This document shows, piece after piece, positions 54,831 to 62,144 of a DNA stretch of 64,000 bases (positions are counted from its first letter, which is position 1; every line of letters begins with the position of its first letter). Under the pieces are notes generated by a model. That model worked only from the letters and a program-made list of their open reading frames with translations, made no database searches and was not told the origin of the DNA. The stretch is from positions 1 to 64,000 of the forward strand of contig JACPPF010000087.1 in the NCBI GenBank assembly GCA_016191165.1, written 5' to 3'. The DNA is from Planctomycetota bacterium (GTDB lineage Bacteria; Planctomycetota; Planctomycetia; Gemmatales; Gemmataceae). The position numbers were made by a program, and so were the translations under genes.

Positions 54831-55922
54831 TCAATATCGAAGTACATACGCCGGGCTCTTGCTCAATCGGTCCCTGCTGCGGATGTAGGTCAGCGTCGTC
54901 CTGGGATCTGCATGTCCGGCAAAATCCTGCAAATCGATGATGTCTGATCCTCGCTCCCTCGCCGTGGTGAGGGCTGTCACCCTGAGCGAGTGGACCGTCA
55001 CCGCCGGATCGAGCCCGAGCCGCCGCACATATATAGAAAGGAGGGACTGGACGGAGCGGCGGGTCAGCGGCCGCGGTTGGAATCCATCCCGCCCCTTGCC
55101 GCGGGCCGATTTCTGCGGACGAAACAACGCAAGCTCACCGGTGTCGCGGCCGACGACAGCAAGCCATTCCTGCAACCGCTCGATCGCTTCCGGGTGCAAC
55201 GGCGTCCGTCGCTCCTTCCCGCCTTTTCCCCGGATCTCCAAAACCTTGTGTCCTCCCGTCTCCTTGTAATCCATCACGCGAAGTCGAGTGAGTTCACCGA
55301 CGCGGCAACCCGTGTACGCGAGCACCGCCAGCAGTGCTTGGTCGCGAATGCCGGCCGGCGTCTCGGTATCCGGTGCATTCATCAGTCGGCGGCAATCCTC
55401 CGGCGAAAGACCAACGGTCTTGCCGTCCCTTGGCACCGGCGGCACCATGACGAAATCGCTGTGGGCCGGGTTCGCACCGGCATACCCATACGTCTGCAAA
55501 TACGAAAACAAACTTCGGAGCACCGTGATTTTCCGAACGATCGCGACGTTCGATAGGCCATCCCCGCGAAGTTGATCACGCCACGCGGCGACCTGATGCG
55601 GGCGGACGGTGACGAGCTGCTCCAGGTGGTCTGGCGCGATGCCGACGAAGTCGAGGAACTGCCGGAGTTCCCGGGCGTACGCCGTTCGCGTTTCAACGGA
55701 CGATGATTTCGTAAGCCAGGCCGTGCACGCTTCGGTGAAGCGGACACGAACATCAACCGCCGTCAAACCTGGCTCGCGGTCGAACGCCGGAATGAGCGCC
55801 GCGGTGGACGCGACCGCTGAATTGTGGTTCAGCCCTTCTTGCTGCTCGGAATCCTCACCGACCATTGACGAACGATTCGATTCATTTTCTCGATGCCGAT
55901 GCTTTTTGGAGTCGGATTTCAT
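54831..55922 (-). CDS. Tyrosine recombinase / integrase
   Basis: The start is the ATG at 55922 (MKSDSKKHRHREN), giving 363 residues. A SAM-like core-binding domain (VRFTEACTAWLTKSSSVETRTAYARELRQFLDF) precedes the catalytic domain, which carries all active-site residues: Arg in YTGCRVGELTRL, Lys in IRGKGGKERRTPL, HSLR in VHSLRVTALTTA, His in FAGHADPRTT and the Tyr nucleophile in LTYIRSRD. It is distinct in sequence from the three recombinases at 57-60 kb and is the best candidate for mobilising the AT-rich block or the entire comM island (inference). Confidence 0.88.
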   Translation of the reverse strand: MKSDSKKHRHRENESNRSSMVGEDSEQQEGLNHNSAVASTAALIPAFDREPGLTAVDVRVRFTEACTAWLTKSSSVETRTAYARELRQFLDFVGIAPDHLEQLVTVRPHQVAAWRDQLRGDGLSNVAIVRKITVLRSLFSYLQTYGYAGANPAHSDFVMVPPVPRDGKTVGLSPEDCRRLMNAPDTETPAGIRDQALLAVLAYTGCRVGELTRLRVMDYKETGGHKVLEIRGKGGKERRTPLHPEAIERLQEWLAVVGRDTGELALFRPQKSARGKGRDGFQPRPLTRRSVQSLLSIYVRRLGLDPAVTVHSLRVTALTTARERGSDIIDLQDFAGHADPRTTLTYIRSRDRLSKSPAYVLRY

Positions 55923-56210
55923 TGCGTGCAAAGTGCGTTTCGCGAAGTATGATACGAACGCGAACAAAAATGCAAGCGCCCAAAAGAACAGGATTCCAGA
56001 TCGTTGCAATCACTTCTACTTCACAACAATTCGACCCCCTGCCAAGCGTTTTCCCCTCGTGCTTGACGCATAATCGAAAACATGTTCCAGCCGTTCATCG
56101 CATTCTCAAGGTTGCGCGCTCGCAATTTTCGTGGCTTAATGTTCGACCCCGTACCGAAGGTCGGCACGGGTGTCTGAGACCATCGTTCCTTTCAAGAAAG
56201 GCAGGTTCGC

Positions 56211-56348
56211 ATGTCCACGAAAACGAAGAAGGCGCCGTCGGCTCCCCGGCGACCGGAGAAAAAATGGGGACCGTTTGCTGGCGGCGTCGGCGTTGCCGTC
56301 TGGCTCAACGAAGCCGACACGGAGCAGGGGAAAAAGTTCTTTCGCTCT
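56211..56348 (+). pseudogene. Gene A, 5' half, split by the RIT element
   Basis: These 46 codons read MSTKTKKAPSAPRRPEKKWG...WLNEADTEQGKKFFRS, preceded by an AAAGG site. They match the first 50 or so residues of the intact paralogue at 56514-56872 (KKWGPFAGGTGVAVWLNEFET...ARTITLSPRR). After FFRS the similarity stops abruptly at AATGTGGCGC, the end of the inserted element. The matching 3' half begins at 60335. Joined, the halves give a protein of about 117 residues. Confidence 0.8.
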
Positions 56349-56451
56349 AATGTGGCGCAAACGGTTATGTGGCGCGGAGGCATTTCACGTTGGCAAATTG
56401 AGTGCCTTCAGATTCTCTTGCCAGCCCTCCCGTTCGGTGTCACTGTTCTCG

Positions 56452-56470
56452 CCTTGCCTTTTTGGCAAGG
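56452..56470 (+). terminator. Hairpin before gene B
   Basis: CCTTGCC TTTTT GGCAAGG forms a 7-bp stem upstream of the gene at 56514. It lacks a downstream U-tract and may be a leader hairpin or weak terminator. Confidence 0.4.
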
Positions 56471-56513
56471 ACTCTGAGAGCGGTCTTTTTCATCACCGAA
56501 AGGAGGTTGCCCA

Positions 56514-56872
56514 TGGCGACCAAAGAAAAACGCGGGAAGAAAACGCAACCCCGCCATCCTGAAAAGAAATGGGGGCCGTTCGCGGGCGGAACCGGCGTGG
56601 CCGTCTGGCTGAATGAATTCGAGACAGCAGCCGGCACCCGCTACGCGCGAACGATCACGCTTTCCCCACGTCGGTTTCGCGATCCGAAGACCAATGAGTG
56701 GCGAGATGGCGCCTACCGTCCCGTCGATTTGTCGGCGATGCTGTTGGCTCTTCAGGCCGCACTCGACTACTGCCACTCGACTCCGCTTCCTGGTGAAGCG
56801 GCCGAGCCGGAGGAAGTCGATGCGCTCGCTGAGGGCGAAGAGTCGCCGTCCGATCCGAAGGCGCCTTTCTGA
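56514..56872 (+). CDS. Gene B: small conserved protein, intact paralogue of gene A
   Basis: The 119-residue protein starts MATKEKRGKKTQ with AAGGAGG six bases upstream of the ATG. Core motifs: KKWGPFAGG, VAVWLNE, TITLSPRRFRDPKTNEW, RPVDLSAMLLALQAALDYC, then an acidic tail. From memory similar small proteins occur on plasmids and archaeal elements, and the strand pattern could suit a nucleic-acid-binding fold; this is unverified. It lies inside the RIT-containing insertion and ends with a strong terminator. The presence of both the interrupted copy and this intact one suggests they were ancestrally adjacent or that B travelled as cargo. Confidence 0.7.
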
Positions 56873-56901
56873 AGTGATTCTGTCCTTTTGCCGCTCTCAG
56901 A

Positions 56902-56934
56902 AAAAATCCCCATGCTCGTTGCATGGGGATTTTT
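56902..56934. terminator. Bidirectional rho-independent terminator after gene B
   Basis: AAAAATCCCCATGC TCGTT GCATGGGGATTTTT has a perfect 9-bp GC-containing stem flanked by A and T runs, so it can act on both strands. It separates gene B from the recombinase trio. Confidence 0.9.
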
Positions 56935-56963
56935 CAGTTAAAGGAAGCCGCGACTTCCGGTTT

Positions 56964-56979
56964 GAACGTCACATAACTT
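56964..56979. repeat. RIT inverted repeat, left
   Basis: GAACGTCACATAACTT is the reverse complement, with one mismatch, of AAGTTATGTGGCGTTC at 60222-60237. The two enclose precisely the three recombinase genes (57021-60215). They are candidate recombinase binding sites or the ends of the minimal element. Confidence 0.75.
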
Positions 56980-57020
56980 TCGTCCAAGCATTCACCCTTT
57001 CCATTCCTTTTGGAGTGACC

Positions 57021-58268
57021 ATGTTCGAACGAATCTTGAAGGATCCGAAGGCTCTGGCTCGTCATCAGAACGGGCCGCTGGCGGAGGAACGTCGGCGTTA
57101 CCTCTTCCACTGCGCCGCCAAAGAACAGACGACTGGGGAAACGTTGCACGGCCTCGCCAACTACCTGCTGGTCATTGCCGAGGCGTTGCGCCTGGACAAG
57201 CGGCCTGGCGAATTGATCTCGCCGGACGAAGTCGATGCCGAGGTGCACCGGTGGATCCATCGTCCCAGACGGAAGAACGTCGGCAAGTTGCAGATCGCGT
57301 TTCGGAATCGCGCCATTCGTTGGCTGACGTATTTGGGACGGATGCAACTGCCTCCCAGCGTTCAGCGACCATTTGCCGATTACGTCGCCCAATTCACGGA
57401 GCACCTCTGCCAGGAACGCGGTTTGGCGCCGGGAACCGTCGCGCTCTGCGAGCGAACGATTCATGGATTTCTTGGAACGATCCACAAAGCCCGTTTGCGA
57501 CTCAAAACACTGACCGTGGCCCAGGTGAACGACCTGCTCGCCAAGGATGTTCAGGATCGTGGCTTTGCACGCTCGACCGTGAGTCGGCAGGCATCGGTTC
57601 TGCGAGAATTCATCCGCTTCGGGGAAAAACGAAACTGGTTCCGTCAGGGACTGGCGGACGGAATCCAGGCTCCGCGTGTGTATCGGCACGAAGGCTTGCC
57701 GGTCGGCCCGTCTTGGGACGACGTGAAGCGGCTTCTGACGGCGGCCGAGGGAGATCGGCCTACGGACATTCGCGATCGTGCCATATTGATGCTTTTGGCG
57801 GTGTATGGCCTGCGCGCCGGTGAAGTCGTCACGCTGCGACTGGAAGACTTCGATTGGAAGCACGAGGTCCTGAATGTTCCACACGGCAAACGAAAGAAAC
57901 CCCGGACCTACCCGCTGTGCCGCCCGGTTGGAGATGCCGTGCTCCGCTACTTGTGCGAGGTTCGACCTCGAACCGATTACCGGGAAGTCTTCCTGACTCG
58001 CATCGCACCAATCAAGCCAATGGACCCGTGCGCGGTAGGAGAGATGGTCCAGAAGCGTCTACACGCTCTCGGCCTGACGCTGCCGCACTATGGTTCGCAC
58101 GTACTTCGGCATGCTTGTGCCACCCATCTGCAGTCGCAAGGTCTGTCGCTGAAAGAGATCGGCGACCACCTTGGGCACCGATCCCCGGAAACCACCCGCA
58201 TCTATGCCAAGGTCGATCTGGCGGCGCTACGCGCTGTCGGAGACTTCAATCTGGAGGGCCTGCTATGA
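57021..58268 (+). CDS. RIT tyrosine recombinase 1
   Basis: The ATG at 57021 (MFERILKDPKALARHQ) is seven bases after TGGAG; the longer open frame is a shadow of gene B. The 415-residue enzyme has an extended N-terminal domain (about 1-110), a SAM-like core-binding domain (YVAQFTEHLCQERGLAPGTV) and a catalytic domain. Active residues: Arg in YGLRAGEVVTLRL, Lys in PHGKRKKPRTYPL, HVLRHACATHL, LGHRSPETT and the Tyr in RIYAKVD. First gene of the trio; its TGA overlaps the next ATG (ATGA). Confidence 0.9.
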   Translation: MFERILKDPKALARHQNGPLAEERRRYLFHCAAKEQTTGETLHGLANYLLVIAEALRLDKRPGELISPDEVDAEVHRWIHRPRRKNVGKLQIAFRNRAIRWLTYLGRMQLPPSVQRPFADYVAQFTEHLCQERGLAPGTVALCERTIHGFLGTIHKARLRLKTLTVAQVNDLLAKDVQDRGFARSTVSRQASVLREFIRFGEKRNWFRQGLADGIQAPRVYRHEGLPVGPSWDDVKRLLTAAEGDRPTDIRDRAILMLLAVYGLRAGEVVTLRLEDFDWKHEVLNVPHGKRKKPRTYPLCRPVGDAVLRYLCEVRPRTDYREVFLTRIAPIKPMDPCAVGEMVQKRLHALGLTLPHYGSHVLRHACATHLQSQGLSLKEIGDHLGHRSPETTRIYAKVDLAALRAVGDFNLEGLL

Positions 58269-59212
58269 ACATCAGCGATTTGGTCACGCACTATGTCGCC
58301 TTCCGCCGCACGCTGGGCGAGCGGTGCGACACGAACGAGCACATTCTTCGCTCTTTCTGCCGCGCCATCGGGCCGCGGACACGGGTTAACCGGATTCGCG
58401 CCAAAGCCGTTGCCGCGTTCTTGAACGGTACCGGCCCGATTACCCGCGCATGGCACGGCAAATACTCCGCGCTGAAGGGGTGCTTCCAGTTTGCGGTCAG
58501 CCGCGGCGACATGGACAAGGCGCCGCTGCCGACAGAAGTGCCGAAGCGTCCGCCGACGCTTGTTCCATACATCTACTCGCGTGCAGAAATCCGGCGCCTG
58601 CTGGATGCAATCCCATCGTACCGGCGCTTCCCGAGCCACATGGAGCCGACCACCCTGCGAGCAATCCTGTTGCTGCTGTATGGAGCCGGGTTGCGGCGCG
58701 GAGAGGCGCTGAAATTGTCGGCCGCCGACGTAGACTTGGCGAACTCCCTTCTCACGATTCGCAATACCAAGTTCTTCAAGTCCCGGCTGGTTCCCATCAG
58801 CGCGGACTTGACGAAGGTTCTGAGCGATTACGCGCGCTGGCGAGCGGCGGCGCATCCGTCAGCCGGCGCTACCAGTACCTTCTTCCTCAACAAACGAGGG
58901 AATGCCGTTCATCGATGCACCTTGGACAACGCCTTCAAACGGTTGCGGGAATATGCCGGCGTGCGGCGCTCCGACGGCGGACGCTTTCAGCCGCGGCTTC
59001 ATGATCTTCGACACGCCTTCGCGGTCCATCGATTGACCGAATGGTACCGGCAGGGAGCGGAAGTCCAACGGCTCGTGTATCACCTCTCCGTTTACCTTGG
59101 CCACGCCCACCTGACCGACACGCAAGTTTATCTGACCCTGACGCCGGAGCTTCTGCAGCAGGCGAGCACGCGTTTTGAGCGGTATGCCCGCAAGGAGGAC
59201 GGTGATGCGTGA
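58265..59212 (+). CDS. RIT tyrosine recombinase 2
   Basis: The 315-residue product starts MNISDLVTHYVAFRRTLGE, at the ATGA junction with recombinase 1. The catalytic residues are present: Arg in YGAGLRRGEALKL, Lys in RNTKFFKSRLVPI, LHDLRHAFAVHRL, YLGHAHLTDTQVYL with the Tyr nucleophile. It ends in ...RKEDGDA, overlapping the third gene by eight bases. Tight overlaps suggest the three proteins are made in a fixed ratio and act as a complex on the element ends. Confidence 0.9.
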   Translation: MNISDLVTHYVAFRRTLGERCDTNEHILRSFCRAIGPRTRVNRIRAKAVAAFLNGTGPITRAWHGKYSALKGCFQFAVSRGDMDKAPLPTEVPKRPPTLVPYIYSRAEIRRLLDAIPSYRRFPSHMEPTTLRAILLLLYGAGLRRGEALKLSAADVDLANSLLTIRNTKFFKSRLVPISADLTKVLSDYARWRAAAHPSAGATSTFFLNKRGNAVHRCTLDNAFKRLREYAGVRRSDGGRFQPRLHDLRHAFAVHRLTEWYRQGAEVQRLVYHLSVYLGHAHLTDTQVYLTLTPELLQQASTRFERYARKEDGDA

Positions 59213-60215
59213 TCCTTCCTTGCTCGGTCCGTGGGTCCGCCGGTTCCTGATGGAGCACATGGTGAGCGAGCGAAATCTCGCCCGCAATACCCAGCGGAGT
59301 TACCGCGACGCCTTGCGGCTGTTGCTCCCGGTTGTTGCTCGGCGCGCCCGTAAGCCAGTTGATCGCCTGGTCGTGACCGACATCTCAACTGACCGCCTGC
59401 GACAGTTCCTAAACGAGCTGGAGGAGAAACGCGGATGCGCTATCTCCACGCGCAACCAGCGCTTGGCAGCGATCCACGCACTGGCTCGGTTCATCAGCCG
59501 GCGTGCTCCGGAGTTGGTCGAATGGTGCGGACAAGTGCGAACGGTGCCGTTCAAAAAGGGTCCGCAGGAGCTGGTCCCGTACTTGGAAAAGCCGGAGATG
59601 GATGCCCTGCTCGCGGCCCCGGACATGGCGACCGCACAGGGCTGTCGAGACCATGCCGTGCTTCAGTTCTTGTACAACGCCGGGGCTCGGGCCAGCGAGG
59701 CCGCGGAGGTTCGCATCGGCGACTTGAACTTGCCGCACGTGCCGGGCCGGGACCAAGCCTCAGTCGTGATCCAGGGCAAAGGGAACAAGCAACGGCTGTG
59801 CCCTTTGTGGGCAAGTACCGCCAACGAACTGCGCCTTCTCATTGGCAATCGAGCCGAGTCAGAATACGTCTTCTTGAATCGTCGCGGGCAGCCGCTGACC
59901 CGATTCGGCATCCACGCCCTCGTGGAACGCTACGCAAGAAAAGTGACGCCGAAGTTCCCTTCGATGGCAAAGAAACGTGTGAGTCCGCACACGATCCGCC
60001 ATACGACCGCGACTCACCTTCTGCGAGCTGGAAACGACATCAACACGATCCGTGGTTGGTTGGGCCATGTCTGCCTCAGCACGACGAACATCTATGCCGA
60101 CGTGGACATGGAGATGAAGGCCAAAGCTCTCGCGAGCTGCGAGATCAAGGAAAAAAAACCGAAGAAGCGTTGGCGCGACGACAAAGGGTTAATGGGGTTC
60201 CTGGAAAGGTTGTAA
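59205..60215 (+). CDS. RIT tyrosine recombinase 3
   Basis: The ATG at 59205 (MRDPSLLGPWVRRFLMEH) follows AAGGAGG by five bases. The 336-residue protein is XerC/D-like: SAM-like domain (LARNTQRSYRDALRLLLPVVA), Arg in YNAGARASEAAEVR, Lys in IQGKGNKQRLCPL, HTIRHTTATHLLRAG, LGHVCLSTTNIYADVD with Tyr. It ends in a basic tail (KEKKPKKRWRDDKG). Six bases after its stop lies the right 16-bp inverted repeat. Confidence 0.9.
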   Translation: MRDPSLLGPWVRRFLMEHMVSERNLARNTQRSYRDALRLLLPVVARRARKPVDRLVVTDISTDRLRQFLNELEEKRGCAISTRNQRLAAIHALARFISRRAPELVEWCGQVRTVPFKKGPQELVPYLEKPEMDALLAAPDMATAQGCRDHAVLQFLYNAGARASEAAEVRIGDLNLPHVPGRDQASVVIQGKGNKQRLCPLWASTANELRLLIGNRAESEYVFLNRRGQPLTRFGIHALVERYARKVTPKFPSMAKKRVSPHTIRHTTATHLLRAGNDINTIRGWLGHVCLSTTNIYADVDMEMKAKALASCEIKEKKPKKRWRDDKGLMGFLERL

Positions 60216-60221
60216 CCCAAG

Positions 60222-60237
60222 AAGTTATGTGGCGTTC
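60222..60237. repeat. RIT inverted repeat, right
   Basis: AAGTTATGTGGCGTTC pairs with the left copy at 56964-56979 with one mismatch. A second, opposite half-site (GACGCCACATTATC) follows at 60277-60290, so the right end has two recognisable half-sites about 40 bases apart. Confidence 0.75.
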
Positions 60238-60310
60238 GACTTATACCCGGTCCGATGAAATGGTCGGTTCCCTCGCCGGACGCCACATTATCGCCTTGGC
60301 AACATATCTT

Positions 60311-60336
60311 CGGTAATGTTGTGCACAACATTACCG
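60311..60336. repeat. Perfect 26-bp palindrome at the right junction
   Basis: The palindrome has CGGTAATGTTGTG as one 13-bp half and its exact complement as the other, with no spacer. Its right end touches the position where gene A resumes (60335). It may be a recombinase synapsis or strand-exchange site, or a remnant of the target. Confidence 0.8.
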
Positions 60337-60553
60337 TTCCGTAAGCATCGCCCCACGTCGGTATAAGGATGAGAAGACCGGCGAATGGAATGACAGCGGA
60401 AGCTTGCGCCCGCAAGACTTGCACGCGCTCTTGCTCGCGCTTCAGGCTGCGGCCGAATTCTGCGCGACGACTCCACTCCCTGGCCAGTCGGCCGAAGAAG
60501 AGCCGCACGACATTCCGCCTCCTCCCGTGGGCAACGGCAACATCCCTTTCTGA
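60335..60553 (+). pseudogene. Gene A, 3' half, resumed after the RIT element
   Basis: The frame reads RSVSIAPRRYKDEKTGEW..., RPQDLHALLLALQAAAEFC, ATTPLPGQSAEEEP and ends GNGNIPF. It aligns without gaps to RTITLSPRRFRDPKTNEW...RPVDLSAMLLALQAALDYC of gene B. The first two codons (Arg-Ser, CGTTCC) repeat the last two of the 5' half (CGCTCT), the likely crossover or duplicated target. No start codon remains. A terminator follows, as in gene B. Confidence 0.8.
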
Positions 60554-60570: not shown

Positions 60571-60604
60571 AAGCCCTTCCGTCACAGAGACGGAAGGGCT
60601 TTTG
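60571..60604. terminator. Rho-independent terminator after gene A
   Basis: AAGCCCTTCCGT CACAGAG ACGGAAGGGCTTTT has an 11-bp or longer stem with A and T flanks, active on both strands. It serves the 3' end of gene A and the convergent minus-strand cluster ending at 60615. Confidence 0.9.
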
Positions 60605-60962: not shown

Positions 60963-62144
60963 TCATTTCGTTGCCGGAAGATCGACGGGGAATTCTTGCC
61001 ACGTCCAACCGTCCGGCCCATCGGTGGGCCAGACACGAACGGGCCTGTATTCGTCACCGAATAGCTTCTGCAACTCGGCGATGGCCTTGAGATGTTTCGC
61101 CTGAAGGTGCGGACGCACGGTGACGAGATGCTTCGCTTCGTCCCGCAGCACGATGAAATCGAGACTGCTGACGAAGGGCGCAACCGCAGGCGTTGTGCGT
61201 TTCACGTCGTCGATGGCGACAAACGCCAACCCGCGGTTGTTCATCCATGAAATATATTGTTTGAGCACGAAGTGACGCGGTTGCTTGATCGCTCGCCGCT
61301 CGCCTTGGCCGTTGGATGAATCATCGGGGGGCGTCACAACCCGTGTCACCTCCCGCCGAATTGGGCCACGGGCGAGCGACTCATCGACCGGTTCACAAAT
61401 CGCAACGCGCCGTCCCTCCTTGAGAAGTTTGTGCAGATAGGTTTCGAGCTGATGGTGTGGAAAGCCTGCCATCGGAAGGGTTTGATCACGCGTGGTCAGC
61501 GTCAACCCGAGCAATTTGTGGGCAGTCTCGGCGTCCTCCCCAAACAGCTCGTAGAAATCCCCCATGCGAAAAACGAGCAGCATATTGGGATGCTTCTCCT
61601 TTGCCTCCTGGTACTGCTGCATGATCGCCGACCGACCAATTGGTAACGGCTGGGATTTCACTGCGGCCGGCGCCGACGCTGTGGTTCGGATTCGGCGTTT
61701 CCTCTTTTCGGGCGGCGGCTCCGCTAGCGGCATGACCGTCGGAGAGTCAAGAATTGGCTCGGGGCCGAGGATCTGAAACGCCATGCGGCGGATATGCGAC
61801 TTGAGACGGGCGTATGGTTCTTTTCCTTCGGTGATAATCTCCACGAGGACTTCGCATGCATTGGCCATGGGCTCTTTCCCGTATTCCTCGGCCATCGGCT
61901 TTATTTTCTCCCTCGCCTCATTCATGTGCATCGCCTTGTAGCCGAGTAGACGCACCACGGCGATCCAGTGCGGTAGCGTGTACATCTTCTGCAGCAGTTG
62001 CTCCTTCTCCTTGCGGGTGAGAGCAATTTCCGCGGCCGGCGTTGGCTGAGATTCGGACAGGAGGCAAATGCTGCCACAGACGAGATTCCACGGCAAATCG
62101 ATGTACGTCACGACCGACAAATCATAACGGAAACTCCAACTCAC
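60963..62144 (-). CDS. Stand-alone MutS domain I protein
   Basis: The 393-residue frame (start uncertain, since the first 30-40 residues overlap the previous gene) has a helical N-terminal third, a basic Pro-rich linker and then MutS domain I at about 172-272. This domain carries MQQYQEAKEKHPNMLLVFRM, GDFYELFGEDAETAHKLLGL, LPMAGFPHHQLETYLHKLL, RRVAICEPVDE and VTRVVTPPD. The Phe-x-Glu mismatch wedge (FYELF, about 197-199) is intact. All later MutS parts (clamp, ATPase) are missing. The C-terminal 110 residues (SLDFIVLRDEAKHLVTVRPH...) are unassigned and might be nuclease-like (weak inference). It may recognise mismatched or distorted DNA during element transfer. Confidence 0.75.
   Translation of the reverse strand: MSWSFRYDLSVVTYIDLPWNLVCGSICLLSESQPTPAAEIALTRKEKEQLLQKMYTLPHWIAVVRLLGYKAMHMNEAREKIKPMAEEYGKEPMANACEVLVEIITEGKEPYARLKSHIRRMAFQILGPEPILDSPTVMPLAEPPPEKRKRRIRTTASAPAAVKSQPLPIGRSAIMQQYQEAKEKHPNMLLVFRMGDFYELFGEDAETAHKLLGLTLTTRDQTLPMAGFPHHQLETYLHKLLKEGRRVAICEPVDESLARGPIRREVTRVVTPPDDSSNGQGERRAIKQPRHFVLKQYISWMNNRGLAFVAIDDVKRTTPAVAPFVSSLDFIVLRDEAKHLVTVRPHLQAKHLKAIAELQKLFGDEYRPVRVWPTDGPDGWTWQEFPVDLPATK

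Follow-up and report, generated by a model that had tools for sequence, protein, structure and literature searches.

The locus lies in the window analysed here, bases 1–64,000 of the 157-kb contig C79, which belongs to a 7.2-Mb draft planctomycete genome available as an assembly of 183 contigs without reads. The nearest relative with a name was a Gemmataceae MAG, Baikal-deep-G178. Within it, the stretch 56348–60333 (~4 kb) is a RIT element that splits a small gene, which we term gene A. The left half of gene A (56211..56347, + strand, a 6-bp core included) starts with an ATG at 56211 and stays open up to the junction, with 46 codons before the break. The right half (60340..60553, +) resumes at 60335–60340, stops at a TGA at 60551–60553, and is followed by an inverted repeat that forms a terminator hairpin (60571..60601, +). 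As originally predicted, the two halves rejoin without a gap and in frame. The rejoined gene aligns both with gene B, a homologue carried by the element (58% identity by tblastn), and with an uninterrupted gene in a genome of the same genus (68%, E 3e-43).

Genes A and B have no family in Pfam, NCBIfam or PHROGs. Among 398 genomes of the class, we detected the gene-A family in 38 at E<=0.001. Strong matches came from about a dozen other planctomycete genomes, supplying the unbroken gene A whose presence in relatives the original prediction had proposed as a check. These homologues run continuously across the break point, with FRS or close variants there, and several share the window’s neighbours (a divergent int, orf110, MutS_I or orf170). 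In the window, int encodes a tyrosine recombinase of the host island (54831..56009, −), found beside gene A here and beside gene-A homologues in relatives, and a further island gene, recognised by domain match and in relatives, encodes a MutS domain I protein (60963..62144, −). Given the unbroken homologues and their common neighbours, gene A is the broken member of a conserved island gene rather than two chance open reading frames, and its family is a small-protein gene of planctomycete mobile islands.

The element encodes three tyrosine recombinases on the + strand: ritA (57021..58268, 415 aa), ritB (58265..59212, 315 aa) and ritC (59205..60215, 336 aa), all identified by reading frame and domain, and ritA and ritC also by their counterparts in relatives. 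The ritA/ritB overlap is 4 bp and the ritB/ritC overlap 8 bp, which bears out the earlier identification of a RIT from three overlapping recombinases. Phage_integrase (PF00589) was found in RitA, RitB and RitC, and the best match of each protein in relatives is its own A, B or C counterpart. Their translations, read by eye, contain the catalytic R-H-R-Y residues (HxxRH, LGH and a final Tyr). The RIT assignment rests on gene layout, catalytic residues and ends, with likeness to published RITs judged by description.

RIT ends, as derived from planctomycete relatives, comprise an inward-pointing pair of WATGTGGC boxes, 17 bp apart, at each outer end, and inner boxes, one near ritA and one near ritC. 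In the window, a motif scan and comparison with relatives place the outer terminal repeats, each with two boxes 17 bp apart, at 56348..56373 (+) and 60282..60307 (−). The inner repeats, found by repeat search and in relatives, are TTATGTGACG on the left (56967..56976, −) and TTATGTGGCG on the right (60225..60234, +). With one mismatch allowed, the 7.2-Mb genome contains exactly two copies of WATGTGGC-N9-WATGTGGC, at 56349–56373 (+) and 60282–60306 (−); no occurrence of this composite motif is expected within the window, and the reversed control motif has no match in the 7.2-Mb genome. Since the motif is found only at the two junctions and the control is empty, chance is excluded. The inverted terminal repeats are accompanied by an overlapping palindrome, the combination that characterises RITs.

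The element is flanked by duplicated 6-bp cores, positioned by alignment with relatives: TCGCTC on the left (56342..56347, +), encoding (Phe)-Arg-Ser in gene A, and CCGTTC on the right (60334..60339, +). The original prediction was right to propose a six-base crossover but placed the copies (CGCTCT/CGTTCC) one base too far to the right. TCGCTC and CCGTTC differ at two positions, both synonymous in the gene A frame. In related elements the cores are alike on both sides in L089, L097 and L101; they are unlike in L099 (CGGATG versus CGGGTG), as in the window. With the element and a single core deleted, one reading frame runs open through the junction in L089, L097, L099, L100, L102, L096 and the window. 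The targets in this set include a transposase (L089), methylase-like genes (L097, L099 and L100) and an integrase (L096), the labels other than integrase being readings of motifs and not of family searches.

Two features add to the anatomy first described. Just inside the right junction lies an inverted third hexamer, CTTCGG (60308..60313, −; reverse complement CCGAAG, Phe-Arg-Ser), recognised by analogy with L089, L091, L096 and L099. It adjoins a 20-bp perfect palindrome of head-to-head end boxes, TAATGTTGTGCACAACATTA (60314..60333), detected by inverted-repeat search and in relatives. Most elements have such a one-sided 20-bp palindrome of two head-to-head boxes with an inverted hexamer on its inner side (60308–60333 in the window; also L089, L091, L096, L097, L099, L100 and L101), and this arrangement, with its inverted core copy, may be the record of a RIT transposition intermediate.

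Read in frame, the three window hexamers, TT[T CGC TC]C, TT[C CGT TC]C and TT[C CGA AG]C, all encode Phe-Arg-Ser; natural gene-A homologues have CCGTTC (L049, for example), CCGCTC, TCGTTC or TCGGAG at the core. The L096 hexamers CCGCGT, CCGGGT and GCGTGT likewise all encode the x-Arg-Val of an HS[FL]RV motif. In Tn554 and SEs, 6 bp from the donor’s left flank end up on the right of the newly inserted element (PMC10214605). If RITs carry 6 bp as Tn554 and SEs do, the shared Phe-Arg-Ser would mean that earlier insertions of the window element probably hit gene-A relatives too; this codon argument is only suggestive, because strand exchange may itself require similar cores.

Gene B (56513..56872, +, 119 aa), identified by reading frame, tblastn and tree, is an intact homologue of gene A situated between the left outer and left inner repeats. 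The paralogue thus lies inside the outer terminal repeats, in agreement with the original prediction. It is preceded by a leader (56438..56512, +) common to the single family member of G005, a genome of the same genus (DNA match of 56438–56638 to G005:C164), and followed by an inverted repeat forming a terminator hairpin (56902..56934, +) that is found after the G005 homologue as well. Our tree pairs gene A with the G005 gene (89/73) and places gene B just outside this pair, on a long branch in the same clade (97/95). The gene B frame is undamaged, with dN/dS of 0.14–0.25 at near-saturated dS. Gene B therefore looks constrained, which fits a working protein and does not imply the same job as gene A. 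At the target spot gene B has GCGAAC, versus TCGCTC/CCGTTC in gene A, a change that may shield the cargo from the element itself. We dropped the idea that cargoes are generally immune at their target sites, because the membrane-protein cargo of the related element L094 keeps a target-like site.

A profile search of PDB sequences with the gene-A/B family gave no match. Modelled with AlphaFold (mean pLDDT 76), gene B shows strands followed by a helix. Structure searches with the model gave nothing convincing, the top hits reaching a Foldseek E of 0.21 and a VIA-align Z of 4.0. The strand-helix order had prompted the idea of a PC4/Whirly-like fold for binding single-strand DNA, which these searches did not support. 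Gene B had no match in plasmid and phage searches, and IMG/VR scans with gene B and RitB found none.

The original prediction had also proposed looking for the same RIT with and without gene B. Standard-size RIT relatives contain only the three recombinases and nothing else, and in eight elements without cargo whose left end is visible (L067, L089, L093, L097, L099, L100, L101 and L102) that end lies 104–227 bp from ritA. With cargo, the corresponding spacings are 673 bp (window), 770 bp (L094) and 1405 bp (L096). In all three cargo lineages, the cargo is a homologue of the gene broken at one or both junctions: the gene A/B family in the window, a membrane gene in L094 and L116, and an integrase in L096 and L095/L135. 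The cargo of the window element and of L094 sits between the outer and the inner repeat, that of L096 inside the inner repeat.

In L094 (genome G094, a single contig), an intact 190-aa cargo, called a membrane protein from its hydrophobic stretches, lies between the outer and inner left repeats. The right flank (LQKYYSRTTQLLEMD...) is the tail of a gene that is intact in L117, and the left flank, read backwards, is another membrane-gene tail, LKKYYRRIDMFLGTDG followed by a stop. Since both flanks are 3' tails of a membrane gene, the locus was rearranged after or during insertion and is not a simple insertion. L116 (G061), in which the RIT itself falls outside the visible sequence, has an L094-type left end and a truncated cargo (81% identity) within a gene whose tail reads LKKYYRRIGMLLGTDG and a stop; the broken membrane-gene tails at the ends of L094 and L116 read LQKYY.. 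and LKKYYRR... Two further elements of this group, L090 (G351:C95) and L091 (G391:C61), whose left ends lie beyond their contigs, are 99% alike and, in two genomes, interrupt homologous genes at the same codons but face opposite ways, which appears to be a comparative sign of RIT mobility. L094 and L090/L091 are only 67–82% alike, yet the target spot is conserved.

In L096 (G097, a single contig), the element breaks an integrase at HSFR|V and carries before ritA, in opposite orientation, an intact integrase 37% identical to the target, a likeness that lies within a large protein superfamily. A relative of this element in G311 has been cut by an insertion in ritA, with matching ATCAAA on L135 (left half) and L095 (right half), from which we infer that L135 and L095 are two halves of one element. 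The insertion (L135 ~3800; L095, oriented, ~138) has the ends TTGCACTTTCTGAG/CTCAGAAAGTGCA, with ATCAAA on both sides. The L135 integrase cargo is 81% identical to that of L096, and L095 is 70% (RitB) and 83% (RitC) identical to L096, so that cargo and RIT have diverged in step and appear to have stayed together. The right half, L095, adjoins the 5' part of an integrase ending in MLKRRLADAGLPARFSPHSFR. The left flank of L135 is not an integrase; we had considered L135 a counterexample on this ground and dropped it, as its probable right half abuts the broken integrase.

In a tree of RitB and RitC, the elements that target the membrane gene form one group (90/89) and those that target the integrase another (95/100). 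On this tree the distribution of cargo needs three changes, at least two of them forced by well-supported branches. When targets are dealt at random among 13 elements, all three lineages match with P ~0.0035, a post hoc figure from three cargo lineages.

We consider it probable, from sequence comparison, that RIT lineages specialised on particular target genes bring along a diverged copy to replace the one they break. A fuller version, in which RITs evolve with one conserved mobile-island target gene and carry a complete diverged replacement that at least two lineages, and probably three, gained independently, stands in our judgement at about even. In the proposed mechanism, RitA, RitB and RitC would act on the terminal box pairs and exchange the 6-bp core, like Tn554 and strand-biased integrative elements, with one core copy being the target’s own and the other brought from the previous site. 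The window lineage would have adapted to one conserved gene-A spot, where Phe-Arg-Ser precedes a stretch like VSIAPRRY. Insertion would destroy gene A, and the element would supply gene B with its own leader and terminator. Gene B would most likely take over the role of gene A; that it restores gene A function is plausible, and if it does, the island would tolerate the insertion. The spare copy looks like a built-in replacement because two other lineages do likewise with different genes.

An alternative that we consider unlikely is neutral hitchhiking, in which imprecise RIT excision or copying captured a nearby gene-A relative as a passenger without a role in tolerance. Capture from an island is plausible, since the leader and terminator of gene B match the free-standing gene of the sibling genome; the position of the cargo also varies among lineages. 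A passenger of this kind sits poorly with three lineages whose cargo is in each case related to that lineage’s own target and not an arbitrary island gene, with an integrase cargo kept with its RIT over 17–30% divergence, and with the undamaged frame and low dN/dS of gene B. The original prediction weighed cargo against recombination between tandem copies, in which A and B were neighbours and exchange between RIT ends or gene copies enclosed B. We now think the latter quite improbable. The two genes are only a few hundred bases apart, and L094 shows that RIT-associated rearrangements occur; the window junctions, however, are clean, with canonical ends, matching cores and gene A halves that meet at the same codon. 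A second tandem copy would be expected outside the terminal repeats, where gene B is inside, no A-B tandem occurs among the relatives searched, and gene A groups with the sibling-genome gene, not with B (89/73). Cargo is favoured by the location of gene B inside the ends, by its leader and terminator in the sibling homologue, and by the finding of the same arrangement, with unrelated gene families, in two further RIT lineages.

We give a slim chance to gene B being a recombination helper like TnpC, Srap and GinD, with its likeness to the target secondary. Tn554, SEs and GInts do require a small accessory protein (PMC10214605, PMC5385486), and the gene-A family often adjoins the island’s own tyrosine recombinase; the fold search, with no clear match, does not decide the matter. 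In eight related RITs, though, a gene of this kind would not fit, the cargo in the other two lineages is a membrane protein or an integrase, and homologues of gene B exist without RITs. An assembly chimera is conceivable in a draft of 183 contigs without reads and seems highly improbable, given that end boxes, spacing, core and palindrome match those in independent assemblies, including the single-contig G094 and G097.

Published RITs have a ritA-ritB-ritC layout and are inserted in genes of other mobile elements, such as a Tn6049-like transposase and radC of Tn6054 (PMC3414803). The window element resembles them (Van Houdt 2009, 2012; Ricker 2013) in its 4–8 bp overlaps, ~3.5 kb size class, inverted repeats with an end palindrome, and insertion within a mobile-element gene; it differs in its target-homologous cargo inside the ends, lineage-conserved target codons, 6-bp cores and inverted third hexamer. 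Like Tn554 and SEs, it is a tyrosine-recombinase element with a 6-bp core that may differ between ends, which in Tn554 and SEs is because one copy comes from the previous location (PMC10214605), but it has three recombinases instead of a recombinase pair and no TnpC/Srap-type gene, and we do not claim membership. GInts share adjacent recombinase-family genes and imperfect direct repeats at their ends (PMC5385486) but have four conserved genes including the accessory ginD, in contrast to three recombinases and a target-like cargo here.

Certain islands and phages also pay for their own damage, by restoring the end of the gene they target. They supply only the missing piece, in frame at att, whereas the window element appears to supply a complete, diverged and separately expressed homologue. 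A literature search, limited in reach, found no precedent for an element carrying a full copy of its target. RITs are widespread, and their target choice and movement have not been formally tested (target specificity is so listed in PMC10214605). The planctomycete RITs give exact ends, a 6-bp core, targets that stay constant while the RITs themselves diverge widely, and a cargo that matches its target in kind. Should that cargo replace the target, it would be a simple, portable way to offset the price of landing in a useful gene, unlike gene-end rebuilding, and nature’s equivalent of engineered “home and rescue” designs.

Several further observations concern the islands and other RITs. The MutS domain I protein of the window (60963–62144) is 393 aa long, is conserved in the island and has this domain as its sole recognised one; a MutS_I fragment lies at the left flank of the related RIT L093. 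In L052 (9999–10217; G233:C5), a gene-A homologue lacks its 5' half and starts at the break codon (RTVSIAPRR), near an int 57% identical to that of the window; this half gene is possibly the scar of a lost RIT insertion. Contig C79 of the window’s genome (G000) holds a second, distant RIT on the minus strand at ~83.5–87 kb (L055 19526 to L056 2907), with 31% (RitB) and 39–45% (RitC) identity to that of the window. L101 (G395:C801) lies in a tRNA array (Arg, Arg, Thr and Trp around the RIT), with the core CGAATC and its left copy at the end of a T-arm-like GGTTCGAATC.
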